A stretch of 64,000 bases of DNA from Herbaspirillum sp. WKF16. GTDB taxonomy: Bacteria; Pseudomonadota; Gammaproteobacteria; Burkholderiales; Burkholderiaceae_D. The notes under the pieces were generated by a model that saw only the letters and a program-made list of their open reading frames with translations, was not told where the DNA came from and did no database searches. Below are positions 8,715 to 28,957 of the stretch, piece after piece (the first letter of the stretch is position 1; every line of letters begins with the position of its first letter). The stretch is taken from contig NZ_CP118632.1 of NCBI RefSeq assembly GCF_028993615.1, positions 1,550,001 to 1,614,000 of the forward strand, in the 5' to 3' direction. The position numbers were made by a program, and so were the translations under genes.

Positions 8715-10490
<1,776 letters not shown>

Positions 10491-10724: not shown

Positions 10725-11504
10725 ATGCCCCAACTCGCCGCCAACCTCACCATGCTGTTCACCGAACAGCCCTTCATGGAACGCTTCAAGGCCGCCGCCG
10801 ACGCCGGCTTCAAGGCCGTCGAATTTCTTTTTCCCTATGCCTTCGACGCCGAGCAGATCGCCGGCCAGCTGCGCGCCGCCAAATTGCGGCTGGTGCTGCA
10901 CAACCTGCCGGCCGGCAACTGGGAGGCCGGCGAACGCGGCATCGCCTGCCATCCCGACCGCGTGGCTGAATTTCGCGCCGGCGTCGACGAGGCCATCCGT
11001 TATGCCCGCGCGCTGGAGGCGCCGCAGCTGAACTGCCTGGTGGGGATACTGCCGCAGGGCGTGGCGCGCGAGGCGGCGCGCGAAGTCCTGGTGGGCAACC
11101 TGAAATACGCCGCCGCCAGGCTGAAGGAGCACGGCATCCGTTTGCTGATCGAACCGATCAACAGCTTCGATATTCCCGGCTTCTTCCTCACCACCACGAA
11201 GCAGGCGGTGGAACTGATCCTGGCCACCGGTTCGGACAACCTGTTCGTGCAGTACGACATCTATCACATGCAGCGCATGGAGGGCGAGCTGGCCGGCACC
11301 CTCAAGGCCAACCTCTCGCTGATCGGCCACGTGCAGCTGGCCGACAACCCCGGCCGCTTCGAACCCGGTACCGGCGAGATCAACTGCCGCTACCTGTTCG
11401 GCTGGCTCGACGAGATCGGCTACGGCGGCTGGATCGGCTGCGAGTACAAGCCGCAGGCGGGCACCGCGCAAGGGCTGCGCTGGATCAAGGAACACGGCCT
11501 CTGA
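10725..11504 (+). CDS. hyi: Hydroxypyruvate isomerase
   Basis: 259 residues, ATG with an AGGAG site a few bases upstream. It is a TIM-barrel sugar-isomerase-like enzyme interconverting hydroxypyruvate and tartronate semialdehyde. Typical segments are LLIEPINSFDIPGFF, with a metal-binding Glu, VQYDIYHMQRMEGEL and the C-terminal GCEYKP. Length and position between gcl and glxR match the E. coli-type glyoxylate operon. A 230-bp gap with an inverted repeat separates it from gcl, so some independent expression is possible. Confidence 0.95.
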   Translation: MPQLAANLTMLFTEQPFMERFKAAADAGFKAVEFLFPYAFDAEQIAGQLRAAKLRLVLHNLPAGNWEAGERGIACHPDRVAEFRAGVDEAIRYARALEAPQLNCLVGILPQGVAREAAREVLVGNLKYAAARLKEHGIRLLIEPINSFDIPGFFLTTTKQAVELILATGSDNLFVQYDIYHMQRMEGELAGTLKANLSLIGHVQLADNPGRFEPGTGEINCRYLFGWLDEIGYGGWIGCEYKPQAGTAQGLRWIKEHGL

Positions 11505-11542: not shown

Positions 11543-12433
11543 ATGGCAAAAGTCGGATTCATCGGCCTGGGCATCATGGGCGCGCCCATGGCGGAAAACC
11601 TGCAAAAGGGTGGCCACAAGCTCTACCTGCATGACCAGAAGAACCCGCCGGCGGCGCTGCTGGAAGGCGGCGCCACCGTCTGCACCTCGGGCGCGGAAGT
11701 CGCCAAGCGCGCCGACATCGTCATCGTCATGGTGCCGGACACGCCGCACGTGGAAGCCGTGCTGTTCAGCGAGAAGGGCGTGGCCGAGGGCCTGTCGGCC
11801 GGCAAGATCGTGGTCGACATGAGCTCGATCTCGCCCATCGCCACCAAGGGCTTCGCGCAGAAGATCAACGCGCTGGGCTGCCAGTACCTGGACGCGCCGG
11901 TCTCCGGCGGCGAGGTCGGCGCCAAGGCCGCCTCGCTGACCATCATGGTGGGCGGCCCGGAAGCCGCCTTCAACGACGTGAAGCCGCTGTTCGAACTGAT
12001 GGGCAAGAACATCACCCTGGTTGGCGGCAACGGCGACGGCCAGACCACCAAGGTGGCCAACCAGATCATCGTGGCGCTTAACATCCAGGCAGTGGCCGAG
12101 GCGCTGCTGTTCGCTTCCAAGGCCGGCGCCGATCCGGCGCGGGTGCGCCAGGCGCTGATGGGCGGCTTCGCGTCCTCGCGCATCCTCGAAGTGCACGGCG
12201 AGCGCATGGTCAAGCGCACCTTCAGCCCGGGCTTCCGCATCGAGCTGCACCAGAAGGATCTGAACCTGGCGCTGCAGGGCGCCAAGGCGCTGGGCATCTC
12301 GCTGCCCAACACCGCCGCCGCGCAGGAGCTGATGAACGCCTGCGCCGCCCATGGCATGAGCGGCCTGGACCACTCGGCGCTGTGCCGCGCGGTGGAGATC
12401 ATGTCCAACCATGAGATCGCCAAGGCATCCTGA
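11543..12433 (+). CDS. glxR: 2-hydroxy-3-oxopropionate (tartronate semialdehyde) reductase
   Basis: 296 residues of the beta-hydroxyacid dehydrogenase family. It reduces tartronate semialdehyde to D-glycerate with NAD(P)H. The nucleotide-binding GLGIMGAPMAENL is at the N-terminus, substrate-binding DAPVSGGEVGAKAASLTIMV is near residue 120, and the catalytic Lys lies in TTKVANQIIVALN around 170. It follows hyi by 38 bases with AAGGAG before the ATG, so it belongs to the gcl operon. Confidence 0.95.
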   Translation: MAKVGFIGLGIMGAPMAENLQKGGHKLYLHDQKNPPAALLEGGATVCTSGAEVAKRADIVIVMVPDTPHVEAVLFSEKGVAEGLSAGKIVVDMSSISPIATKGFAQKINALGCQYLDAPVSGGEVGAKAASLTIMVGGPEAAFNDVKPLFELMGKNITLVGGNGDGQTTKVANQIIVALNIQAVAEALLFASKAGADPARVRQALMGGFASSRILEVHGERMVKRTFSPGFRIELHQKDLNLALQGAKALGISLPNTAAAQELMNACAAHGMSGLDHSALCRAVEIMSNHEIAKAS

Positions 12434-16016: not shown

Positions 16017-17396
16017 TCAACGCGCCGCCTCGGCCAGTTCGAGCGACAACTTGTTGTGACGCTCCAGCACCGCCCCCAGGTCGATGGTGGCGAGCTGGCC
16101 TTCGCGCACCACCACGCGGCCGTTGATGATGCTCCATGCCACGTCGCCGGGCGTGCAGAACACCAGCGCCGCGACCGGGTCGTGCAGGGCGCCGGCCAGG
16201 CCGATGCGGCGCGTGTCGAACAGCGCCACGTCGGCCGACATGCCGGGCTTCAGGGCGCCGATGTCGTCGCGGTTCAATACCTTCGCGCCGCCCAGCGTGG
16301 CGATCTCCAGCGCCTGGCGCGCGGTCATGGCGTCGGGGCCGAAGCCCACGCGCTGCAGCAGCATGGCCTGGCGCGCCTCGCCCATCATGTGGGCGGAGTC
16401 GTTGGAGGCGCTGCCGTCCACGCCCAGGCCGACCGGCACGCCGGCATCGATCATCTTGCGGATGGGGGCGATGCCCGAGGCCAGTCGCATGTTGGAGCAG
16501 GGGCAGTGCGCCACGCCGGTGCCGGTGCGGGCGAAGAGTTCGATGCCGTGGTCGTCGAGCTGCACGCAGTGGGCGTGCCAGACGTCGTGCCCGACCCAGC
16601 CGCAATCTTCCGCGTACTGGGCCGGGGTCATGTTGAATTTCTCGCGGCTGTAGGCGATGTCGTTGACGTTCTCGGCCAAGTGGGTGTGCAGCGAGACCTG
16701 GTAGTGGCGCGCCAGGTCGGCGGCTTCGCGCATCAGGTCGCGCGAGACCGAGAACGGCGAGCAGGGCGCGACCACGATGCGCTGCATGGCGTGGCGGCCG
16801 GCGTCGTGGTAGGTCTCGATCAGGCGGCGGGTGTCTTCCAGGATGGCGCCTTCCTCCTCCACCACGCGATCCGGCGGCAGGCCACCCTTGGACTGGCCCA
16901 CGCTCATCGCCCCGCGCGCGCCGTGGAAGCGCATGCCGATCTGGGCGGCGGCTTCCAGGCTGTCGTCCAGGCGGGTCTTGTTGGGATAGATGTAGAGGTG
17001 GTCGCTGCTGGTGGTGCAGCCGGAGAGGATCAGCTCGGCCATCGCGGTCAGCGTGGAGACCTTGATCATCTCGGGGGTGAGGCCGGCCCAGATCGGGTAG
17101 AGGTTGGTGAGCCAGCTGAAGAGTTCGCCGTCCTGCGCGGCGGGGATGGCGCGCGTGAGGCTCTGGTACATGTGGTGGTGGGTGTTGACCAGGCCGGGGA
17201 GGGCGACGTGGTGCGCGGCGTCGATGATCTCGTCGGCTTCTTGCGGCAGCGCGCCGGTGCGGCCTACCTGCTCGATGACGTTGTTGCGGATGAAGATGGC
17301 GCCGTCCTTGATCTCTTCGCGGGTGTCGTTCATGGTGACGACGACGGCGGCATTCCTGATCAGCAGGGTACGGTTGGGGGCGTGCGCTTGGGGCAT
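16017..17396 (-). CDS. 8-oxoguanine deaminase (amidohydrolase family)
   Basis: 459 residues from the ATG at 17394-17396. It is a cytosolic metal-dependent amidohydrolase of the TrzN/AtzB/8-oxoguanine deaminase group that converts 8-oxoguanine to urate. Metal ligands are visible in LVNTHHHMYQSL (His73, His75), SLHTHLAEN, WHAHCVQLDD and GLGVDGSASND. Placement in a urate-producing and urate-consuming locus supports the 8-oxoguanine assignment over other substrates of this group. A frame extension upstream of the ATG runs into a repeat and was discarded. Confidence 0.88.
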   Translation of the reverse strand: MPQAHAPNRTLLIRNAAVVVTMNDTREEIKDGAIFIRNNVIEQVGRTGALPQEADEIIDAAHHVALPGLVNTHHHMYQSLTRAIPAAQDGELFSWLTNLYPIWAGLTPEMIKVSTLTAMAELILSGCTTSSDHLYIYPNKTRLDDSLEAAAQIGMRFHGARGAMSVGQSKGGLPPDRVVEEEGAILEDTRRLIETYHDAGRHAMQRIVVAPCSPFSVSRDLMREAADLARHYQVSLHTHLAENVNDIAYSREKFNMTPAQYAEDCGWVGHDVWHAHCVQLDDHGIELFARTGTGVAHCPCSNMRLASGIAPIRKMIDAGVPVGLGVDGSASNDSAHMMGEARQAMLLQRVGFGPDAMTARQALEIATLGGAKVLNRDDIGALKPGMSADVALFDTRRIGLAGALHDPVAALVFCTPGDVAWSIINGRVVVREGQLATIDLGAVLERHNKLSLELAEAAR

Positions 17397-17700
17397 GTCG
17401 GGACTCCTTGGTGTGTTCCTTGTTTGGTTTTTGGGTTTGTTCCGGCGCAGGTGACAGTGGAGTCCCTTGTTGTCCCTATTGACGCTGCGGCGGGGTGGGT
17501 TGGTATTTGTTTTTAAGTTGTTAGTTTTTGATTGCTTGAGTAGTTTGGTCTTGCTGCCTGCAGATGTACCGGCTTTAGTCTTATCTCTCTCTGGTCGGAG
17601 CGGAGCGCCGGGGACGGCCCGGCAGCCGCTCACTTTCTTTGGCCCGCCAAAGAAAGTAAGCAAAGAAAACGGCCCCTAAGTGCCAGCCCCTTCGGGGTTC

Positions 17701-18030: not shown

Positions 18031-19794
18031 TCACTGCTTCGGCCGGAAGCTGCGCAGGAAATCCAGCAGGATCCGTCCCGATACCTCGGCGTCGTCCGCA
18101 GTCATGGTCTCCAGCGGGTTGTGGCTGATGCCGCCGTTGCCGCAGCGGGTGAACAGCATGCAGACGTCGGTCATCCTGGCGATCGTCATGGCGTCGTGGC
18201 CGGCGCCGGAGGCCAGTTCGAAGGGGGCGATGCCGGCGCGCTCGGTGGCCGCCGCCAGTTGTTGCATCAGCCATGGCGCGCAGGGCGCGGCCGGGGCGGA
18301 GACGGTTTCTTCGATCCTGGCGTCGACGCTGCGGCGTTCGCAGATTTCCTCGATCTTCTCCAAGACGTCGGCCACCGCGGCCAGGCGCACGTCGTCGCGG
18401 GCGGCGCGGATGTCCAGCGAGAGCTGGCAGGCGCCGGGGATGACGTTGGTCGAGCCGCGCGGCACCTGCAGCTGGCCGACGGTGCCCACCAGCGAGGCGT
18501 GCTGGTCCCGCGAGCAGCGTTGCTCCACGTAGAGGATGATCTCGGCGGCCGCCGCGGCGGCGTCGCGGCGCATGTCCATCGGCGTGGTGCCGGCGTGGCT
18601 TGCCACGCCCTTCAAGTCCACCAGGTAGCGCGAACTGCCGGCGATCGAGGTGACGATGCCCACCGGCAGGTCGCGGTTCAGCAGCACCGGGCCTTGCTCG
18701 ATGTGGACTTCCACGTAGCCCAGGATGTCGGACGGGTCGCGCGCGATCTGCGGGATGGCGGCGACGTCGTGGCCGGCCTGGGTGATGACCTCGCGCATGG
18801 AGACGCCGTCGCGGTCTTGCAGCTCCAGCAGGTTCAGGTCGAATTGGCCGATCACGGCGTTGCTGCCGAGGAAGGTGCTCTTGAAGCGCACGCCTTCTTC
18901 TTCCGAGAAGGCGATCACTTCGAAGTGGAAGGGGAGGGTCTCGCCGCGTTCGTTGAGTTCCTTGACGGCCGCGATGGCCAGCAGGATGCCTTCGCGGCCG
19001 TCGTACTTGCCGCCGTTGCGCACCGTGTCGTAGTGCGAGCCGGTCAGCAGCGTCCTGGCCTGCGGGTCGGTGGAAAGGTAGCGGCCGACCACGTTGCCCA
19101 CGGCGTCGATATGCACATGCATGCCGGCTTCGCGCATCCAGTGCGCGATCTGGTCGGCGGTGCGGCGGTGGGCCTCGGTCAGGTAGGTGCAGGTCAGCGC
19201 GCCTTCGTCCTCCGACAGCGCGCCGATTTCCTCCGCCCATTGCATCACGGTGGCGCCCAGCGCGGGCCGGTGGCCGAGCAGGTCGTTGATGCGCATCTCG
19301 GCGATGCGGCCGATCTGGCGCAGCGCTTCGCGCAGCTCGTCTTCCGGCTGGTTGCGCAGGCGACGGGTGAAGGTGGCGAGGATCTGCTGGCGCGTCAGGC
19401 CGGCGCCGGTGGGGCCCTTGACCGCCAGGATGAAGGGGAAACCGAAGCGCGCGTTGTAGTCGGCGTTGAGCTTTTGCAGCGCGGCGAATTCTTCCGGCGT
19501 GCACAGGTTCAGGCCGGCCTTGGCCTGCTCGCCGGTCGACTCGGCGGTCAGCTCGCCGGCGATCGCGGCGCGGCCGGCCAGCTCAGGGTGGGCCCGGATC
19601 AGGCCCAGCTGTTCGGCGCGCTCGGCTTCGGTGACCACCTTTTGCAGCGCCAGCTTGAACGCCGCCAGGGTGCGGAACGGACGCTGCGCCGCGGCGCGCT
19701 CGGGAATCCAGGGCGAGTGCTCGTAGATGCCCTGCAGGGCGGCGATGAAGGCCGGGGCCTCGGCGTGGTTGAGTTGTTCCAGTGTCGTCGTCAT
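18031..19794 (-). CDS. Fused OHCU decarboxylase and allantoate amidohydrolase (UraD-AllC)
   Basis: 587 residues from the ATG at 19792-19794. Residues 1 to about 170 are a 2-oxo-4-hydroxy-4-carboxy-5-ureidoimidazoline decarboxylase domain; the family His is in LIRAHPELAGRAA (His69). Residues about 180 to 587 are an M20 amidohydrolase of the AllC/ureidoglycolate hydrolase/carbamoylase type. Its metal ligands are in TGSHYDTVRNGGKYDGREG (His254, Asp265) and FSEEEGVRF (Glu299-300). The first domain forms S-allantoin from OHCU; the second probably opens allantoate with release of ammonia. Fusing two non-consecutive steps, with allantoinase encoded separately, is unusual. Confidence 0.93.
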   Translation of the reverse strand: MTTTLEQLNHAEAPAFIAALQGIYEHSPWIPERAAAQRPFRTLAAFKLALQKVVTEAERAEQLGLIRAHPELAGRAAIAGELTAESTGEQAKAGLNLCTPEEFAALQKLNADYNARFGFPFILAVKGPTGAGLTRQQILATFTRRLRNQPEDELREALRQIGRIAEMRINDLLGHRPALGATVMQWAEEIGALSEDEGALTCTYLTEAHRRTADQIAHWMREAGMHVHIDAVGNVVGRYLSTDPQARTLLTGSHYDTVRNGGKYDGREGILLAIAAVKELNERGETLPFHFEVIAFSEEEGVRFKSTFLGSNAVIGQFDLNLLELQDRDGVSMREVITQAGHDVAAIPQIARDPSDILGYVEVHIEQGPVLLNRDLPVGIVTSIAGSSRYLVDLKGVASHAGTTPMDMRRDAAAAAAEIILYVEQRCSRDQHASLVGTVGQLQVPRGSTNVIPGACQLSLDIRAARDDVRLAAVADVLEKIEEICERRSVDARIEETVSAPAAPCAPWLMQQLAAATERAGIAPFELASGAGHDAMTIARMTDVCMLFTRCGNGGISHNPLETMTADDAEVSGRILLDFLRSFRPKQ

Positions 19795-20076
19795 GTGCTT
19801 GCCGGGCGGGCTTGGCCGACCGGTCCCTTGGGTTGTGTTCGTGGGCGCGGGCGGCGCCGCTTGCCGGCATCTGATTTTCACGATTGTCGGGCGCGATTGT
19901 CGCGCCCGAATGTCGTGGACAGCCGCCGCCGGGCGCGCTTTTCTCCGCAGGCTAGACTTTAAAACATCCGGGCCGGATTGGCATCAGCCGTTTCATCTGG
20001 GCGCTATGCGATTTCGCTTATCACCGCACATATGGGGCGGCCGATATAAGCCTCATCTGCGCCGCCCGTGGCCGCA
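19795..20076. promoter_or_regulatory. uraD-allC upstream region with CATATGG motif
   Basis: 282 bases between the permease stop and the fusion-gene start. CATATGG is at 20029-20035 in ACCGCACATATGGGGCGG, about 240 bases from the start codon. It matches the core seen before the AzgA-type permease and in the puuE-uraH intergenic palindrome. Confidence 0.35.
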
Positions 20077-21471
20077 TCAGTGGTCGGAACTTTGCGCCGC
20101 CGCCACCGCGTAGCGCGCCGCGTCCTCCTGGCTGCCGCGGCCGTTGAAGAACAGGTTGAGCGCCACGGCCATGCTGGAGGCCAGCAGGATGCCGCTGTGG
20201 AAGATGGTGCCGAGGAAAGGCGGCATCTTGTCGAAGAAGCCCGGGGCGACGATGGGAATCATGCCCACGCCGATGCTGATGGCGACGATGAACAGGTTGT
20301 TGCGGTTGCCGTGGAAATCGACCTTGGAGAGGATCTTGATGCCGGTCGCCGCCACCATGCCGAACATCACGATGCCGGCGCCGCCCAGCACGAACTGCGG
20401 GATCGAGGCCGCCACGTGGGCCATCTTGGGGAACAGGCCGAAGGCCACTAGGATCACGCCGGCGGCCACGCAGACGAAGCGGCTGCGGATGCCGGTCACG
20501 CCCACCAGGCCGACGTTCTGCGAGAACGAGGTGTAGGGGAAGGTGTTGAACACGCCGCCGATGACGGTGCCCAGGCCGTCCACCCGCAAGCCGCGCGCCA
20601 GCGTCTTGTCGTCGACCGGCTTGCCGACGATGTCGCCCAGGGCCATGAACATGCCGGTGGACTCGATCATGGTCACGATCATCACCAGGCACATGCTGAC
20701 GATGGAGGCCAGGTCGAACTGCGGCATGCCGTAGTGGAAGGGGCGGATCATGGCGAACCAGTCGGCCGCGTCCAGGCCGTCGAAGCTGATCTTGCCCAGG
20801 CCGAAGGCGACCACGAAGCCGACCGCCATGCCCATCAGCACCGAGATGTTGGAGATGAAGCCCCGGGTGTACTTGGTGATCAGCAGGATGGACACCAGCA
20901 CCAGGGCCGCGATGGACAGCGACAGCGGCGAGCCGTAGTCGGGGTTGGGCACCTTGACGAACACGCCGTCCACCAGCTTGCCGATCACCGGCTGGCCGCC
21001 GGCGGCCCAGTTGATGCCCACGCCCATCAGCGACACCCCGATCACCGTGATCACGGTGCCGGTGACCACCGGCGGGAAGTAGCGCATCAGCTTGCTCATG
21101 TAGGGCGAGGCGAGGATGCAGAACAGGCCCGAGGCGATCACCGCGCCATAGATGTGCAGGATGGAGAGCGAGGGATTGTTGGCCATCGCCACCATCGGCC
21201 CGACGGCGGCGAAGGTCACGCCCATCATGACCGGCATGCGGATGCCGAACTTCCAGATGCCGGCGCTCTGGATGATGGTGACCAGGCCGCAGCAGAACAG
21301 GTCGGCGCTGATCAGGTAGGCGATCTCGGACTTGGGCAGGTTCAGCGCGCCGCCGATGATCAGCGGCACGGCGATGGCGCCGGCATACATCACCAGCACG
21401 TGCTGCATGCCGAGCGCGAACAGTTTGAATACGGGCAGGCGTTCATCCACCGGATGGCTTTGGGTTTGCAT
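20077..21471 (-). CDS. NCS2-family urate/xanthine permease
   Basis: 464 residues, ATG at 21469-21471. It is an inner-membrane nucleobase:cation symporter of the NCS2 (UraA/XanQ/UacT) type with about 14 hydrophobic segments. The N-terminal LFALGMQHVLVMYAGAIAVPLIIG has the QH pair typical of the family. The central MIVTMIESTGMFMALGDIVGK and FPYTSFSQNVGLVGVTGIRSRF contain the signature substrate-binding Glu and the QN-GL-TGI-SR motif. Its neighbours favour urate or xanthine as substrate, but the sequence alone cannot separate these. Confidence 0.93.
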   Translation of the reverse strand: MQTQSHPVDERLPVFKLFALGMQHVLVMYAGAIAVPLIIGGALNLPKSEIAYLISADLFCCGLVTIIQSAGIWKFGIRMPVMMGVTFAAVGPMVAMANNPSLSILHIYGAVIASGLFCILASPYMSKLMRYFPPVVTGTVITVIGVSLMGVGINWAAGGQPVIGKLVDGVFVKVPNPDYGSPLSLSIAALVLVSILLITKYTRGFISNISVLMGMAVGFVVAFGLGKISFDGLDAADWFAMIRPFHYGMPQFDLASIVSMCLVMIVTMIESTGMFMALGDIVGKPVDDKTLARGLRVDGLGTVIGGVFNTFPYTSFSQNVGLVGVTGIRSRFVCVAAGVILVAFGLFPKMAHVAASIPQFVLGGAGIVMFGMVAATGIKILSKVDFHGNRNNLFIVAISIGVGMIPIVAPGFFDKMPPFLGTIFHSGILLASSMAVALNLFFNGRGSQEDAARYAVAAAQSSDH

Positions 21472-21718: not shown

Positions 21719-22663
21719 TTAGCCGCGCACCTGCGCGACCAGCTTGGCGGCCGCGCTGACCTGGGCGCGCAGCCATTTGTGTTCGGTCGCCTGGTGCACG
21801 CGCTCGTGCCACAGCTGGTAGAAGCGCAGCGGCGGGAACTTGATCGGCACCGCATAGCTCTTCAGCGCCAGCAGTTTTTCGTAGAAGCTGGCGAACTGCT
21901 GGCCGGCGGTCAGCACCAGGTCGGTTTGCGCCACCATGTAGGGCAGCATGCGGAAATGGGCCGACTCCACCACCACGTTGCGGTGCAGGTTCTGCTTCTC
22001 CAGGAAGGTGTCGATGGTGCCGTGGTAGCCGGGCAGGATCTGCGAGGGCGCGGCGTGCGGCAGCGAGAGATAGTCCTCGATGCTCATGGCGTCGCGCGCG
22101 GTGCGCTTGGCGTAGGCGCAGTCGGCGCGCATCAGGCACACGATGGGATCGTCGAACAGCTTGGAGAGGTGCAGGTGCGGCGGCGGCTCGTCCCAGTTGG
22201 CGATCACCAGGTCCAGCTCGCCGTCCGAGAGCAGGCGCACGTAGTCGGTCTCGGGGCCCAGCGCGTGGATCACGATGTGACTGCGCGGCGACTCGCGCCG
22301 CAGCCGCGCGATCACCTCGGTGAAGAAGGGCGTGTTCATGTAGTCGGGCGCGGCGATGTGGAAGGTGCGTTCCTCCTCTTGCGGCACGAAGGCGGTCTTG
22401 GGCACGAACAGGCGCTCGGTCTCGTCGAGGATGCGCTTGGCAGGCTTCAACAGGCTTTCGCCGTGCTGGGTCGGCACCATGCCGCGCGCGCCGCGCACCA
22501 GCAGCGGGTCGCCGGTGAGCTCGCGCAGCTTGCGCAGCGAGGCCGAGATCGAGGGCTGCGGCTGGTTCAGCTTCAAGGCCACGCGCGAGACGTTTTTCTC
22601 GCACAGCAGCAGGTAGAGGATGCGGATGAGGTGGATGTCGAGATGGTCTGGCAGCCTGGACAT
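21719..22663 (-). CDS. LysR-family regulator near puuD
   Basis: 314 residues from the ATG at 22661-22663, which has a GGAGA site 8 bases upstream; a TTG start 27 bases earlier is less likely. The DNA-binding domain is LDIHLIRILYLLLCEKNVSRV, with helix-turn-helix residues LNQPQPSISASLRKLRELTG, resembling the NodD/SyrM-like subgroup. It lies between the urate permease and the divergently oriented puuD, so it is the likely regulator of urate degradation. The effector is unknown. Confidence 0.9.
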   Translation of the reverse strand: MSRLPDHLDIHLIRILYLLLCEKNVSRVALKLNQPQPSISASLRKLRELTGDPLLVRGARGMVPTQHGESLLKPAKRILDETERLFVPKTAFVPQEEERTFHIAAPDYMNTPFFTEVIARLRRESPRSHIVIHALGPETDYVRLLSDGELDLVIANWDEPPPHLHLSKLFDDPIVCLMRADCAYAKRTARDAMSIEDYLSLPHAAPSQILPGYHGTIDTFLEKQNLHRNVVVESAHFRMLPYMVAQTDLVLTAGQQFASFYEKLLALKSYAVPIKFPPLRFYQLWHERVHQATEHKWLRAQVSAAAKLVAQVRG

Positions 22664-23438
22664 GTGGATGTCTCCGGGTTCTTCGTTCAAGCGCGTGGTG
22701 ATCGCGCAAAAAGGCAGGTGACGGTTTTTCGTTCACTCTGGTGGCGTTCGCGTCTGCACCCGCGAGGCCGGTTGCTTCGTCACTTGGTCTTGCTCCGATG
22801 GCATGCCTGGGGCGGCGTCGGCGGCGCCCATGGGATGCAAGCATCATGCCCGGGGGCAATGGCCTGCGGATGGTCCGCCGCGTCGTGCTCTTGTCGTTTG
22901 CCGCTGTGTCGCCGTTGTTGCGCGCCGGCCGGTCTCTGCGGCCTTTTTACCCGTGTCCCGGCTCGGTGGCACGGTCGGCATGGGTTGGTTGGTATCGATG
23001 AATTGCGCGCGAACGCAAGCGTCCCACATTTCCGACTCATTTTTGTATATGGAACCGCGTATGTCAAATATACGTGGGGGGCCATGTTTTGGCGCGTCGG
23101 CGGCGTTTATCTTTCGTGCAACCGGTCCGAGCCACGGAAAACGCTCGCCTCACAAGGGCGGCCAGTACGCAGCGCGGGCCGACATAACAGATGGCGCAGC
23201 CATCGGGTCGCAGCGGCGGCGACGGCAGGAGACCGGCAGGGTACGCGCCCGCAATGGCTTCCTGGCTCGCTGGAAGCTTCTCATCCACTTGCAATCATGT
23301 TGCCGCGCGGTATCGCAGCCGCGCGCCGGGCGTGCCTGCGCGGGGGAGGGGCTTCCATCGCGGCCCTTTCCTGAGGCGCTGCCTCGCCTGTCCGGAGCAA
23401 GTCGCGGTGGCGGACGGGAATCCTGAGTTGGGGAAGAC
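22664..23438. promoter_or_regulatory. Long LysR-puuD intergenic region (775 bp)
   Basis: No credible gene was found; ORFs here are out-of-register GC-rich frames without start sites. An AT-richer island at about 23030-23080 contains an inverted repeat GTATAT (23045-23050), 17 bases, ATATAC (23068-23073); its left arm runs into TATATGG. That makes it a good candidate operator and promoter for puuD, leaving an untranslated leader of about 360 bases. Confidence 0.45.
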
Positions 23439-24698
23439 ATGGAAGCATTATTGGTATCGTACGGCGTCGAATGGGCCAACCTGCTGGTGCGCTGGTTGCA
23501 CCTGATCACCGGCATCGCCTGGATCGGCGCATCGTTCTATTTCGTCTGGCTGGACAATTCGATCCGCCCGCCCAAGGCCGGCAGCGACCTGGAGAAGAAG
23601 GGCGTGTCCGGCGAGCTGTGGGCGGTGCATGGCGGCGGTTTCTACAATCCGCAAAAATATCTGGTGGCGCCGGCCGAGCTGCCGCAAGAGCTGCACTGGT
23701 TCAAGTGGGAGGCCTACGCCACCTGGATCACCGGCGTCGCCATGCTGTTCATCGTGTACTACTTCAACGCCTCGGCCATGATGGTCGACAGGTCGGTCGC
23801 CAACCTCTCCGGCATCGAAGCGGTGGGCGTGGGCATCGGCACGCTGGTGCTGGGCTGGATCGTCTACGACCTGCTGTGCCGCTCGCCGCTGGGCAGGAAG
23901 GAAGGCTTGCTGGGCCTGGTGATGTTCGTCTTCATCGTGGCCGTGGCCTGGCTGCTGACGCACCTGCTGTCGGGGCGCGCCGCCTACATCCACGTGGGCG
24001 CCATGATCGGCACCATCATGGTGGGCAACGTGCTGATGGTGATCATCCCCGGCCAGCGCAAGCTGGTGGAGGCGATGAAGCAGGGCCGCTCGCCCGACCC
24101 GATCCACGGCCGCCGGGGCAAGCAGCGCAGCGTGCACAACAACTACTTCACGCTGCCGATCCTGTTCATCATGATCAGCAACCACTACGCGATGACCTAC
24201 ACGCATGCGTACAGCTGGCTGGTGCTGGCCGCGATCATGGCGGCGGGCGTGCTGATCCGTCACTTCTTCAACCTGCGGCACAAGGGGCGGGTGTCGGTGG
24301 GCTATCCGATCGCCGGCGCGGCGCTGCTGCTGGCGGTGGCCGTGGCCATCGCGCCCAGGCCGGCGCCGCGGCCTGCCGCAAACACCGGGGCCGTCACGGT
24401 CGATCCGGCCCAAAGTGTACCTGTCGCCGCCGCGGCCGGCGGCGTAGACTTCGGCCGCGTGCAGGAGGTCGTCACGCAGCGCTGCGTGAGCTGCCATGCG
24501 GCGCAGCCGACGCAGGCGGGCTTCGCCACCGCGCCGGCCGGGATGATGCTGCAGACGCCCGAACTGATCCGCCAGCACGCCGCCAAGGTGTACCAGCGCG
24601 CGGTGCAGACCCGGGACATGCCGCTGGCCAACATGACCCACATGACCGACGACGAGCGGGCGCTGATCGGCGCCTGGTTCGAAGCCGGCGCGAAATAA
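23439..24698 (+). CDS. puuD: Membrane urate oxidase PuuD with C-terminal cytochrome c domain
   Basis: 419 residues, with GGGGAAG before the ATG. Residues 1 to about 305 are the multi-spanning PuuD membrane domain (RWLHLITGIAWIGASFYFVWLDN; several His in the membrane part). Residues about 335-419 form a cytochrome c domain with haem motif CVSCH at 349-353 and a candidate axial Met in TRDMPLAN (Met394) or THMTDD (Met402). PuuD oxidises urate to 5-hydroxyisourate and passes electrons to the respiratory chain instead of making hydrogen peroxide, unlike soluble uricase. No other urate oxidase is in the window. Confidence 0.94.
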   Translation: MEALLVSYGVEWANLLVRWLHLITGIAWIGASFYFVWLDNSIRPPKAGSDLEKKGVSGELWAVHGGGFYNPQKYLVAPAELPQELHWFKWEAYATWITGVAMLFIVYYFNASAMMVDRSVANLSGIEAVGVGIGTLVLGWIVYDLLCRSPLGRKEGLLGLVMFVFIVAVAWLLTHLLSGRAAYIHVGAMIGTIMVGNVLMVIIPGQRKLVEAMKQGRSPDPIHGRRGKQRSVHNNYFTLPILFIMISNHYAMTYTHAYSWLVLAAIMAAGVLIRHFFNLRHKGRVSVGYPIAGAALLLAVAVAIAPRPAPRPAANTGAVTVDPAQSVPVAAAAGGVDFGRVQEVVTQRCVSCHAAQPTQAGFATAPAGMMLQTPELIRQHAAKVYQRAVQTRDMPLANMTHMTDDERALIGAWFEAGAK

Positions 24699-24769: not shown

Positions 24770-26398
24770 ATGCAGACCATCACCATCGACGGCTTCAACC
24801 TGACCGCGCAGCAAGTGGTCGACGTCGCCCGCGCCCCGCACCTCAAGGTGGCGCTGGCCGACTCCTCTCGCGCGGCATTGAAGCAAAGCCGCGACTACAT
24901 CGAAAGCACCTGGATGCACGACGAGGCGCCGATGATGTACAGCTTCAACACCGGCGTGGGCCTGTTGAAGGACACCCGCATCAAGGTTGAGCACATCGAG
25001 CTGTTCCAGACCCAACTGATCCGCGCCCACAGCGCCGGCATCGGCGAGCCGTTCCCGGAGGAGGTCAGCCGCGCCACCATGCTGCTGCGCGCCAACGCCT
25101 TCGCCTCCAACTATTCGGCGCCGCGGGTGGAGGTGGTGGATCGCCTGCTGGCCTTCATCAACGCCGGCATCCATCCAATCATGCCGCAGAAGGGCTCGGT
25201 GGGCGCCTCCGGCGACCTGGCGCCGCTGGCCTACCTGGCCGCCGCCATCGCCGGCTTCGAGGAGGCCGAGGTGATGTACCGGGGGCAGCGCATGCGCGCG
25301 CCGCAGGCCATCACGCAAGCCGGCATCGGCCCGGTGCGGTTCGACCTCAAGGCCAAGGACGCCTCGGCCCTGATCAACGGCTGCACCGCCTCGCTGGCCG
25401 TTGCGATCCTGGCCGCGCACGACGCCCGCCACCTGCTCACCGACGCCTGCCTGTCGCTGGGCCTGACGCTGGAGGCGATGCGCGCCGAGATGTCCGCCTT
25501 CGACCCGCGCATCCAGCAGGCGCGCCCGCATGCCGGCCAGATCAAGACCGCGCAGGTGGTGCGCACGCTCCTGAAGGGCTCCACCCGCACCACCCACGAG
25601 GCGCGCGCCGTGCAGCTGCCGGACGAGCTGCGCCGCACCGACATCCCCTACACCGCGCGCATCCAGGACGTGTACTCGCTGCGCTGCTCGCCCCAGGTCT
25701 ACGGCCCGGTGTTCGATGCGCTGGATTACATCGACACCATCATCGAAAAGGAGACCAACTCCGCCACCGACAATCCGCTGATCTTCAACAAGGAAGACGG
25801 CGAGGGCTTCGAGATCATCTCCGGCGGCAATTTCCACGGCCAGTACCTGGCGCAGGCGATGGACCTGCTGGCCATGGCCATCACCGACCTGGGCAGCATC
25901 TGCGAGCGCCGCGTGGCGCGCCTGATCGACCCGACGCTGTCGTGGGGCCTGCCGCGCAACCTGATGAGCGGGGTGCGCGGCGTCAACACCGGCTACCCGG
26001 TGGTGCAGTGCTCGCTCAGCTCGCTGGTGATGGAAAACCGCACGCTGTCGATGCCGGGCAGCGTGGACAGCATCCCGTCCAAGGGCAACAGCGAAGACCA
26101 CATCTCCAACTCGACCTGGTGCGCGCGCAAGGCGATGACGGTGGTGCAGAACACGCAGTACATCGTCGGCGTGGAAATGCTGCTGGCGGCGCAGGCGCTG
26201 ACCATGACCGAGGAGCTGCTGAAGGACTTCAGGCTGGGCCAGGGCACGCAGGCCGCCTATGACGAGATCCGTCGCCAGATCCCGGCTTGCCTGGACGGCG
26301 ACCGCTGGTTCCACGACGACATCCAGGCCGCGCACGGCTTCGTGGTCAGCGGCTCGGTGCGCAACGCGGTGATCGCCGGCATCGGGCAGTTCGTCTGA
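24770..26398 (+). CDS. Histidine-ammonia-lyase-like MIO enzyme in the purine locus
   Basis: 542 residues, 71 bases after puuD on the same strand, with AAGGAAGG upstream. It belongs to the aromatic amino acid lyase family: the MIO-forming ASGD is at 146-149 in GSVGASGDLAPLAYL. HAL active-site positions appear conserved: Tyr57 (MYSFNTGVG), His87 (IRAHSAG), Asn203 (LINGCTA), Gln/Tyr/Arg in IQDVYSLRCSPQV, Phe in SGGNFHGQYL and Glu in NSEDHISN. The second residue before His87 differs from classical HutH (AH instead of SH). No hutU, hutI or hutG is nearby, so a role in ordinary histidine use is doubtful. The substrate is unknown. Confidence 0.9.
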   Translation: MQTITIDGFNLTAQQVVDVARAPHLKVALADSSRAALKQSRDYIESTWMHDEAPMMYSFNTGVGLLKDTRIKVEHIELFQTQLIRAHSAGIGEPFPEEVSRATMLLRANAFASNYSAPRVEVVDRLLAFINAGIHPIMPQKGSVGASGDLAPLAYLAAAIAGFEEAEVMYRGQRMRAPQAITQAGIGPVRFDLKAKDASALINGCTASLAVAILAAHDARHLLTDACLSLGLTLEAMRAEMSAFDPRIQQARPHAGQIKTAQVVRTLLKGSTRTTHEARAVQLPDELRRTDIPYTARIQDVYSLRCSPQVYGPVFDALDYIDTIIEKETNSATDNPLIFNKEDGEGFEIISGGNFHGQYLAQAMDLLAMAITDLGSICERRVARLIDPTLSWGLPRNLMSGVRGVNTGYPVVQCSLSSLVMENRTLSMPGSVDSIPSKGNSEDHISNSTWCARKAMTVVQNTQYIVGVEMLLAAQALTMTEELLKDFRLGQGTQAAYDEIRRQIPACLDGDRWFHDDIQAAHGFVVSGSVRNAVIAGIGQFV

Positions 26399-26422
26399 GC
26401 TCGCGACGCCAATGCGCCAATG

Positions 26423-26450
26423 AAAAAGCCCGGCGATGCCGGGCTTTTTT
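26423..26450. terminator. Bidirectional terminator after the HAL-like gene
   Basis: Stem AAAAAGCCCGGC (26423-26434), loop GAT, stem GCCGGGCTTTTT, with one further T. A runs on one side and T runs on the other allow termination for both the plus-strand lyase and the reverse-strand porin. Confidence 0.92.
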
Positions 26451-26482
26451 ATTCGAGTACGGAGGGCGCGCGCCCGAGGTAA

Positions 26483-27301
26483 TCAGAAGTGGTATTCCAT
26501 GCGCACCATCGGCGTGCTGGCGGTAGCGCCCGGCACCTTGTTCTGGTTGCCGAACTTGTTGCGCCAGTATTGGTATTCCAGGCCCAGGCGCAGCGTGTTC
26601 TTGCCCATGCCGATGCTGTTGCCGACGTCGTACATGATCTGGCCGTCGAAGTTCAGCTCGGGCGAGGTGGGTACGCCGAACTCGTCGCGGCCCTTGGCGG
26701 CGATGTAGTTCATGTAGCCCTCGAAGGCGAAGCCGGAGCTGCCGATGGGGATGCCCCAGGCCAGGTTCAGCATCGGGTGCGCGTCGTAGTTGTAGCGGCT
26801 GGAGATGCTCCTGGGCTTGTTGCTCTCGAACAGCGCCAGGATGCTCACGTTGAGGAAGCCCGGCACGTCCATCATCAGGGTCGGGCCGACCACCCACATG
26901 CGCTTCTTCGAGGCGTAGCCGCTGTCGTTCTTGGTGTTCCAGTCGAAGCCCAGCGTCATGCCCACGCCGCGCGCCGGGCCGAAGGAGAGGTCGCGGCCGG
27001 CGATCTTGCCGATGTCCAGCGTGTGGCGATAGGTGACGTAGACTTCCCGCGCGTTGTCGTCCTTGTTGTCGGACATCAACAGGTCGACGTTGAGGAAATT
27101 GGTGCCGTACTTGTAGCCGCTGCTGTGCATGAAGTTGACGACGTTCTTGCTGATGTCCTGCGTGTGGTAGGGCTCGGCGAAGCGGGTGCCGTAGCGGTAG
27201 CCGATGGAATTGTCGGCCCAGTCGACGGCGGCCGCGGCGCCGGAGGCGGCCATCAGGCCGGCGGCGATGACGCCCTGGATGCGCAGGGAAGCTTGTTGCA
27301 T
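26483..27301 (-). CDS. Tsx-like nucleoside-specific outer membrane channel
   Basis: 272 residues from the ATG at 27299-27301, with GAGGAGG upstream. A signal peptide of about 25 residues ends at SGAAAA-VDWADN. The mature protein is rich in alternating aromatic and polar beta-strand segments and ends in VRMEYHF, a terminal Phe typical of outer membrane barrels. The N-terminal IGYRYGTRFAEPYHTQDISK and NVDLLMSDNKDDN resemble the Tsx/outer-envelope family. In this locus it would admit purine nucleosides or bases to the periplasm. It ends at the shared terminator. Confidence 0.85.
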   Translation of the reverse strand: MQQASLRIQGVIAAGLMAASGAAAAVDWADNSIGYRYGTRFAEPYHTQDISKNVVNFMHSSGYKYGTNFLNVDLLMSDNKDDNAREVYVTYRHTLDIGKIAGRDLSFGPARGVGMTLGFDWNTKNDSGYASKKRMWVVGPTLMMDVPGFLNVSILALFESNKPRSISSRYNYDAHPMLNLAWGIPIGSSGFAFEGYMNYIAAKGRDEFGVPTSPELNFDGQIMYDVGNSIGMGKNTLRLGLEYQYWRNKFGNQNKVPGATASTPMVRMEYHF

Positions 27302-27479
27302 GGTTTTTCCTCCTCGTAGGGATGATCGCGCTTGGTTATTGGTATGCGCGTGTCCGTGGTGCCGCCACGGCGGTGCTGCAGCGAGATGCTCAGGGGCTCG
27401 CATTCTACGCCAGCCGGTGGGTGGCGCGATACGGGCACGTGGCCGGCGGCAGGGTGGGCCGGCGCTTTGCGCGCGACGA

Positions 27480-28433
27480 TCAGCTCCTGTTGGGAGCGGA
27501 TGGCGTGTGCGGATGGATCTTGCGCCAGTGGTCGGCGATGTCGATGCGGCGCGCGATCCAGACCCGGTCGCGGCTGCCGATGTAGTCGAGGAAGCGCGCC
27601 AGCGCCGCGGCGCGTGCCGGACGGCCGGCCAGCCGGCAATGCAGCCCGACCGACAGCATCTTGGGCCGGTCCAGGCCGTCCGGGTCGCCTTCGGCGTAGA
27701 GGGTGTCGAAGGCGTCCTTCAGGTAGTCGAAGAACTGGGCGCCGGAGTTGAACCCCTGCGGCGCGGCGAAGCGCATGTCGTTGGTGTCGAGCGTGTAGGG
27801 CACGATCAGCTGGGGCGTCACGGCGCCGCCGGTGGCGACCTCTTCCCAGTAGGGCAGGTCGTCGGCGTAGCTGTCGGCGTCGTAGCTGAAGCCGCCGTGC
27901 TCGGCCACCAGCCGGCGCGTGTTGGGCGAGTCGCGCCCGGTGTACCAGCCCAGCGGCGGCGCGCCGGTGAGTTCGCGGATGATGGCGACGGCCTCGGCGA
28001 TGTGGCGCCGTTCGGTGGCTTCGTCGATGTGTTGGTAGCTGATCCAGCGCAGGCCGTGGCAGGCGATCTCGTGGCCCAGTTCCAGGAAGGCGGCGGTGGC
28101 CTCCCGGTTGCGCTGCAGCGCGCGCGCCACGCCGAACACGGTCAGCGGCAGGCGGCGCTCCTCGAACATGCGCAAGAGGCGCCACAGGCCGGCGCGCGAG
28201 CCGTATTCGTAGATCGATTCCATGCTCATGTGGCGCGCGGCGAAGCTTTGCGCGCCGATGATCTCGGAGAGGAAGGTCTCGGAGCCGGCGTCGCCGTCCA
28301 GGACGCAGTTTTCCGCCCCTTCCTCGTAGTTCAGGACGAACTGCACGGCGATGCGGGCGCCGCCCGGCCAGCGCGCGTGGGGCGGACGGCGGCCGTAGCC
28401 GGCCAGCTCGCGCGGATATGCGGGGTCTTTCAT
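27480..28433 (-). CDS. puuE: Allantoinase PuuE (polysaccharide-deacetylase-like)
   Basis: 317 residues from the ATG at 28431-28433. This is the metal-independent allantoinase related to polysaccharide deacetylases, unlike the amidohydrolase AllB. It hydrolyses allantoin to allantoate. Family segments are RIAVQFVLNYEEGAE, ELGHEIACHGLRWISYQHID, GWYTGRDSPNTRRLVAEHGG and LIVPYTLDTNDMRF. It is divergent from uraH, a common pairing; urate is oxidised by PuuD, opened by UraH, decarboxylated by UraD and then acted on by PuuE. Confidence 0.95.
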   Translation of the reverse strand: MKDPAYPRELAGYGRRPPHARWPGGARIAVQFVLNYEEGAENCVLDGDAGSETFLSEIIGAQSFAARHMSMESIYEYGSRAGLWRLLRMFEERRLPLTVFGVARALQRNREATAAFLELGHEIACHGLRWISYQHIDEATERRHIAEAVAIIRELTGAPPLGWYTGRDSPNTRRLVAEHGGFSYDADSYADDLPYWEEVATGGAVTPQLIVPYTLDTNDMRFAAPQGFNSGAQFFDYLKDAFDTLYAEGDPDGLDRPKMLSVGLHCRLAGRPARAAALARFLDYIGSRDRVWIARRIDIADHWRKIHPHTPSAPNRS

Positions 28434-28603
28434 GTCTCCAGCCTTGTCTTGGTTTTTTAGCGGTAAGGCATTATGTCCGCGCAACGGATGACTGGTATAA
28501 GGTGGTCCATATATGGACTTGGAGGCGGCGGTATATCATGCCCGGCATCGCATCGACGCATGCGCACCCCGCCAGGCAAACCAACGAGGAAAAGGGAAAC
28601 ATC
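28434..28603. promoter_or_regulatory. puuE-uraH divergent promoter with perfect palindrome
   Basis: A 14-bp perfect palindrome GTCCATATATGGAC lies at 28505-28518 near the middle of the divergent gap. Its CATATATGG half resembles the CATATGG and TATATGG motifs before the AzgA-type permease, uraD-allC and puuD, which makes it the best candidate operator of the purine regulon. Confidence 0.6.
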
Positions 28604-28957
28604 ATGGGAAAACTGAGCACGCACGTGCTGGACATCACCAAAGGCAAGCCCGGCGCCGGCGTCAGCCTGGCGCTGTATGCGCTGGAGAACGGCCAGCGCA
28701 GGCTGCTCAAGAACGCCGTCACCAACGGCGACGGCCGCTGCGACGAACCGCTGCTGGCCGGCGACGCGCTGCGCGCCGGCAAGTATGAGCTGGTGTTTTG
28801 CGCCGGCGACTACTTCGCCGCGCAAGGCGTGGAGCTGCCCAGTCCGCGCTTCGTCGACGAGGTGGTGATCGCCTTCGGCATCGCCGACCCGGCGCAGAAT
28901 TACCATGTGCCGCTGGTGGTCTCGCCCTGGGCCTACTCGACCTATCGCGGCAGCTGA
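28604..28957 (+). CDS. uraH: 5-hydroxyisourate hydrolase (transthyretin-like)
   Basis: 117 residues from the ATG at 28604. An ATG farther upstream would add an unsupported tail. It hydrolyses the product of urate oxidation to OHCU. The N-terminal LSTHVLDITKGKPGAGV has the conserved His and the family start. The C-terminal tetrapeptide YRGS is the diagnostic end of this enzyme, distinguishing it from transthyretin proper. No signal peptide is seen, so it is cytoplasmic. Confidence 0.96.
   Translation: MGKLSTHVLDITKGKPGAGVSLALYALENGQRRLLKNAVTNGDGRCDEPLLAGDALRAGKYELVFCAGDYFAAQGVELPSPRFVDEVVIAFGIADPAQNYHVPLVVSPWAYSTYRGS

Follow-up and report, generated by a model that had tools for sequence, protein, structure and literature searches.

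We describe a MIO-type ammonia-lyase from Herbaspirillum sp. WKF16, encoded within a window of 64,000 nucleotides (the whole stretch of DNA analyzed here). It belongs to a genuine subfamily of purine catabolism that is well conserved and has so far been mislabelled. The assignment of the enzyme to the breakdown of urate and allantoin is strong, as it adjoins genes for urate oxidation or allantoate hydrolysis in nearly every relative surveyed, and, judged from its sequence, the subfamily is distinct from the ordinary histidine ammonia-lyase HutH. As to the reaction, we tentatively propose, at somewhat under an even chance, that the enzyme is an ammonia-lyase of a separate subfamily in ureide catabolism acting on (S)-ureidoglycine, a substrate that we infer. 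If this is true, the lyase would supply a missing step in the recovery of purine nitrogen by a group of soil and plant bacteria, MIO chemistry would extend beyond aromatic amino acids, and the annotation "histidine ammonia-lyase, HutH2" on many database proteins would be corrected.

The open reading frame begins with ATG and encodes an intact MIO-type lyase of 542 amino acids, of which residues 11 to 501 match the aromatic amino acid lyase profile PF00221 (Lyase_aromatic) over its full length, far above the cut-off of 27.3 bits and in keeping with the fold of the MIO aromatic amino acid lyase superfamily (Table 1). It is the sole PF00221 gene in the complete genome of 4.99 Mb (single contig). 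The sequence-only reading had placed the gene 71 bases behind puuD, which is exact, puuD ending at 24698, and purine-rich AAAGGAAGG precedes the ATG. The same reading saw a terminator shared with the porin at the gene end, and there is indeed a hairpin between the lyase gene and the opposite-strand porin-like gene, equalled by none of 200 shuffles, which appears terminator-like for both genes; it was not listed by a simple terminator scan, and simple promoter and terminator scanning was otherwise unhelpful. The surrounding genes belong to purine use and, farther upstream, to the glyoxylate branch, where pyruvate kinase was identified along with gcl, hyi and glxR. The porin-like gene matched no Pfam or NCBIfam family, and the frame of hydroxyisourate hydrolase probably has its true start internally, as the family match runs from residue 64. 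A second puuD elsewhere in the genome (C1:4271749-4273008, L188; 54% to the first) lies near puuE and genes for an NCS1 permease, a GntR protein and a Porin_4 protein, giving two urate-type loci in one genome.

Table 1. Features of the window around the lyase gene, with family scores given as bits against the model cut-off where available
Feature	Coordinates	Strand	Evidence and remarks
Glyoxylate carboligase (gcl), start of glyoxylate branch	8715..10490	+	TIGR01504 1195.1 vs 711.2
Hydroxypyruvate isomerase (hyi)	10725..11504	+	TIGR03234 384 vs 353.45
Tartronate-semialdehyde reductase (glxR)	11543..12433	+	TIGR01505 422.9 vs 340.75
8-oxoguanine deaminase	16017..17663	-	NF006055 742.7 vs 532
UraD (OHCU decarboxylase)-AllC (allantoate amidohydrolase type) fusion	18031..19881	-	TIGR03164 190.6 vs 96.25; NF006775 517.7 vs 479
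Xanthine/urate-type permease	20077..21471	-	TIGR03173 544.5, over cut-off
LysR-type regulator, divergent from puuD	21719..22690	-	PF03466, PF00126; position kept in most related A-type (puuD) loci
puuD, membrane urate oxidase, 71 bases upstream of lyase	23439..24698	+	PF06181 468.8; CXXCH motif in C-terminal part
MIO-type ammonia-lyase, HAL-like subfamily of purine loci	24770..26398	+	PF00221 538.5; under both HutH cut-offs
Hairpin between lyase and porin-like gene	26419..26453		-24.3 kcal/mol, z -5.6
Porin-like protein	26483..27403	-	kept in place in part of related loci
puuE allantoinase	27480..28484	-	TIGR03212 516.9 vs 424.6
Hydroxyisourate hydrolase (HIUase)	28418..28957	+	TIGR02962 127.1 vs 87.45

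To place the gene among its relatives, we took 125 loci from named genomes and surveyed the 80 best, of which the six cut off by a contig end less than 1.3 kb upstream (L062, L069, L071, L108, L112 and L115) were left out of the ratio. Among the 74 readable loci, puuD lay just upstream on the same strand in 54 (gap 15-553 bases) and a stand-alone AllC-type gene in another 18 (gap 22-132 bases), together 72 of the 74; the two loci with neither gene were L046, next to a divergent DctA gene, and L084, next to a divergent nucleobase permease. The AllC partners that were scanned scored over the cut-off for allantoate amidohydrolase (NF006775) and under that for ErtE. The 20 loci of the AllC type or with neither gene differ in their further surroundings, with a GntR gene close by in 13, a DctA-like gene in seven and a divergent nucleobase permease in three Janthinobacterium loci; the Collimonas sp. 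OK607 locus (L051) runs from an NCS1 permease through an Asp/Glu/hydantoin-type racemase, PuuE and AllC to the lyase and a porin, and the allC-lyase pair of Noviherbaspirillum denitrificans (L113) is transcribed away from puuE and a glxR-like gene. The tie of the lyase to a urate locus, as first read from the sequence, is thus borne out, and neither of the findings named as telling against it was made: homologues mostly adjoin purine genes, and the genome lacks a urocanase match. Most of the loci come from one bacterial family, the Oxalobacteraceae, with synteny shared by descent. In a search across the order, three of 399 genomes gave matches at E <= 1e-100, and all three belonged to the family of Herbaspirillum sp. 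WKF16.

The linkage recurs at greater distance. Among 398 genomes drawn from the phylum, four outside the class carried an orthologue, at 55-60% identity, three of them with purine or allantoate linkage: in G491 and G437, of one genus, puuD is just upstream; in G464 a TPP enzyme and AllC (568.8 bits against a cut-off of 479) precede the orthologue; and in G784 it stands without a purine neighbour. Database relatives of the G491 protein came from Microvirga, Bosea, Bradyrhizobium, Phreatobacter, Alsobacter and Beijerinckiaceae, and the twelve Hyphomicrobiales-type rows in a tree set of 34 rows mostly carry the same new signature. A search of plasmids returned only homologues under 60% identity.

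Eight genomes possess two lyase copies whose DNA is 92.7-98.2% identical across roughly the length of the gene alone, the match starting no more than 11 bases from the gene start and ending within about 75 bases of the gene end or at the contig end (pairs include L038/L039, L040/L041, L047/L049, L057/L064, L059/L113 and L060/L063). In all seven pairs compared in an identity matrix the partner copy was the closest sequence, and six of the eight within-genome pairs were sisters in a within-subfamily tree of 58 chosen rows, with L038/L039 and L045/L046 falling in unresolved forks. Seven pairs combine the puuD and allC settings and the eighth, L045/L046, puuD with another setting, and setting labels are scattered over the same tree (label A changes 13 times, vs 18 on average after shuffling). 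In several draft genomes contigs end inside the lyase gene, as repeated DNA would lead one to expect. The simplest reading is that gene conversion keeps the copies alike; such homogenization implies a need for one and the same protein in the two settings, and suggests one shared reaction behind puuD and behind allC.

The pathway offers a plausible vacancy for such a reaction. Passages of earlier work describe AllC as yielding ureidoglycine, which ureidoglycine aminohydrolase (AllE/UGlyAH) turns to ureidoglycolate with loss of ammonia (PMC4016543, PMC3793230) and which also decays spontaneously (PMC4016543). The model for UGlyAH (TIGR03214) was over its cut-off in none of 61 genomes, with no match whatever in Herbaspirillum sp. 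WKF16, and this shortfall is unspecific, being common to lyase-bearing and lyase-free genomes alike. AllC itself was present in all 27 lyase-bearing genomes (three of which, G010, G032 and G033, show end-of-contig fragments only) vs 15 of the 34 without the lyase. The view that purine degradation needs no such step, taken in the sequence-only reading, is therefore one we no longer share: the ureidoglycine made by AllC has to shed ammonia, and none of the 61 genomes has the known enzyme for this above its cut-off. The lyase would do the same metabolic job as UGlyAH, releasing ammonia from ureidoglycine after AllC, by MIO chemistry rather than metal-dependent hydrolysis; UGlyAH belongs to the cupin family and is unrelated to the lyase.

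The main uncertainty of the ureidoglycine reading is an M20 ArgE/DapE-like deacylase, a protein of an unrelated family whose gene takes the place of the lyase gene behind puuD or allC in other genomes, so that the step may be filled otherwise. The order LysR-puuD-M20 occurs in G036, G092, G304 and G333, and AllC-M20 in seven genomes (G014, G016, G026, G045, G052, G057 and G205). We rejected a strict replacement of the M20 gene by the lyase, since the M20 gene is found in 25 of the 27 lyase-bearing genomes (at another place in most of them, Herbaspirillum sp. WKF16 among these), as well as in 12 of the 15 lyase-free genomes with AllC. The lyase and the M20 protein may stand in for each other at a single step or may serve different steps. 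In other Burkholderiales the M20 gene stands directly behind puuD or allC (L148:5889-7118, L150:8817-10148, L191:10722-11960 and others), making its product a candidate enzyme of ureide catabolism in its own right. Ureidoglycolate lyase (PF04115) was rejected as an obligate partner, being present in 20 of the 27 lyase-bearing genomes and absent in seven; the copy in Herbaspirillum sp. WKF16 is under the NCBIfam ureidoglycolate lyase cut-offs.

The MIO triad, the catalytic set and the linkage to urate oxidation and allantoate amidohydrolase can be read from the sequence itself, and on them we build the following mechanism. AllC would release (S)-ureidoglycine, an unstable alpha-amino ureide, from allantoate; the MIO group of the lyase would take up its amine, with R305, N203, Q299 and Y57 holding the amino-acid end of the substrate, while H87 and E442, the histidine-site residues in HAL, would face the ureido group. 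A base could then take the acidic ureido N-H as ammonia leaves, giving an N-carbamoyl imine that would hydrate to ureidoglycolate and so lead to glyoxylate and gcl, the lyase replacing UGlyAH. We know of no MIO enzyme that forms a C=N bond, and this counts against the ureidoglycine reading. Held more loosely still is a fuller version, in which a subfamily spread over Oxalobacteraceae and Hyphomicrobiales was recruited from histidine breakdown; in this possible scenario the elimination of ammonia from ureidoglycine runs across C-N to give C=N and not C=C, ureidoglycine is the first known aza-type, non-aromatic MIO substrate, UGlyAH is replaced by a non-homologous enzyme, and gene conversion maintains the likeness of two copies that answer to different regulators.

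A different ureide is the strongest competitor, though an unlikely one: the lyase could act in ureide catabolism on allantoate, on ureidoglycolate, or on a carbamoylated amino acid from the neighbouring M20-type amidohydrolase. The same puuD and allC linkage would fit these substrates; the AllC-type protein of L039 scored higher against a solved ureidoglycolate hydrolase than against allantoate amidohydrolase (200 vs 172 bits), so that the exact substrate of the AllC partner may differ from allantoate; and a homologue in Agrobacterium vitis, described below, sits with hydrolases of N-carbamyl-glutamate and hydantoin-propionate. Against this, the Oxalobacteraceae AllC proteins scanned were all under the ErtE cut-off, and the chemistry is restrictive. 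A substrate for MIO chemistry normally has to carry a primary amine adjacent to a carboxylate, a feature that ureidoglycine alone possesses among the ureides on the way from urate to glyoxylate.

Histidine itself is a slightly weaker candidate, in our judgment rather unlikely, on the supposition that the protein is a genuine histidine ammonia-lyase that happens to be regulated together with purine genes to scavenge nitrogen, its urocanate being excreted or used elsewhere. The case for it lies in the likeness to HutH (PF00221; Pseudomonas putida HAL 1b8f, TIGR01225), which shares the fold, MIO triad and catalytic residues of the lyase and supplies its best family models, the nearest solved structures being HALs and a tyrosine aminomutase. 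In an alignment of 74 full-length subfamily rows, the triad A146-S147-G148 has Ala in 73 rows (Thr in one) and Ser and Gly in all 74, and Y57, H87, N203, Q299, Y302, R305, F355 and E442 are invariant; these eight we take to equal the HutH catalytic set Y53, H83, N195, Q277, Y280, R283, F329 and E414 in P. putida numbering. With H87, E442 and all HAL catalytic residues kept, histidine could still bind. Counterparts of Y57, H87, N203 and E442 are given as essential in GkHAL in PMC11432326, which also links the SH motif of HALs to histidine recognition and describes Met380 as conserved in all the bacterial HALs it covers. Both of the latter features are lost in the lyase. The SH motif reads AH (S86A; Ala in 72 of 74 rows and Ser in two, vs Ser in six of six HutH proteins), and position 410, equated with Met380 by alignment, is Pro in 70 rows, Thr in three and Ser in one, vs Met in six of six HutH. 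The initial view that every position important in HAL is recognizable thus stood for the triad and the eight residues above and failed at the SH motif.

Further differences also argue for a separate enzyme. The lyase missed the cut-offs of both HutH models (TIGR01225, 494.1 vs 539.15; NF006871, 503.4 vs 524), 60 positions are fixed differently between the subfamily and six HutH proteins, GQY stands for AEP and NSED for NQED, and a loop near 270-295 is longer. In the 34-row tree, the subfamily and HutH fall into two separate clades, with support of 100 and 99, respectively. No hut genes are linked to the lyase, and urocanase (hutU, TIGR01228), whose absence had already been suspected, had no match in the whole Herbaspirillum sp. 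WKF16 genome or in 25 of the 27 lyase-bearing genomes; G034 holds both a lyase gene beside PuuD and a separate HutH-like gene beside hutU. With cut-off, motif and operon tests failed, we rejected an ordinary HutH and favor the new lyase class that the sequence-only reading had raised as an option, while the histidine or imidazole-type substrate it also suggested is now less likely than a ureide. Ergothionase (6s7j, Treponema denticola; acting on ergothioneine according to its PDB title) was rejected as well, its similarity being lower than that of HAL, at 25% identity to the lyase over the structural alignment.

One homologue calls for caution. On plasmids of Agrobacterium vitis and Allorhizobium ampelinum, a HAL homologue with 46% identity to the lyase lies behind ErtD- and ErtE-type genes. 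Like the lyase, it is directly behind an M20 amidohydrolase gene and shares F59, V63, K67, E240, N397 and K438; unlike the lyase, it is over the HutH cut-offs (540.5 vs 539.15; 562.2 vs 524), keeps S86 and Q441 of HutH, has a mixed signature, and has neighbours over the ErtD and ErtE cut-offs. Because these neighbours are of types belonging to another pathway, we rejected the homologue as a clean third line of support and count it as a warning that a lyase adjoining an M20 hydrolase need not mean allantoate. The operon may be of the kind from which the lyase subfamily was recruited. In both L226:7252-11614 (Allorhizobium ampelinum pAtS4e) and L227 (A. vitis), the ErtD-type, ErtE-type and HAL genes stand in a row behind an ABC transporter, which looks like an imidazole- or hydantoin-propionate pathway with HAL in place of ergothionase.

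It is improbable that the lyase acts off the main line, its substrate being an amino acid of imidazole or hydantoin type that arises on the side when urate or histidine is broken down: the lyase does retain H87 and E442 of the imidazole site, and the neighbours of the A. vitis homologue handle hydantoin-5-propionate, but the L051 operon holds allantoin-type genes only, and no hydantoin-propionate hydrolase was recognized beside the AllC neighbours in the several genera whose loci were scanned. Least credible of all is that the lyase became fixed beside purine genes by chance in one family and plays no role in purine use, given that the shared synteny of the Oxalobacteraceae loci and the isolated G784 orthologue are set against homogenized copies and two different settings that recur at 55-60% identity beyond the class.

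Open-licence literature, searched by title or abstract start, gave no description of a HAL-like lyase with urate or puuD, ureidoglycine, allantoate amidohydrolase or allantoinase, and the main text of the PuuD paper (PMC4562309) makes no mention of a lyase, "ureidoglyc" or Herbaspirillum. A ureidoglycolate assay, close to one usable for ureidoglycine, is described in a passage of PMC3793230. Two further observations concern other genes of the same genus. (i) L146:7164-8828 in G014 encodes a thiourocanate hydratase (1036.2 bits vs a cut-off of 930), and the hutU-model match in G004 has a score similar to that of this gene, which suggests ergothioneine breakdown in some members. (ii) Many genomes of the genus, Herbaspirillum sp. 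WKF16 not among them, possess a second MIO lyase of about 33% identity (L137:7906-9612, L147:8610-10301), with Gln at the position of E442 and a neighbour of 800 amino acids, possibly in a pigment-type cluster.
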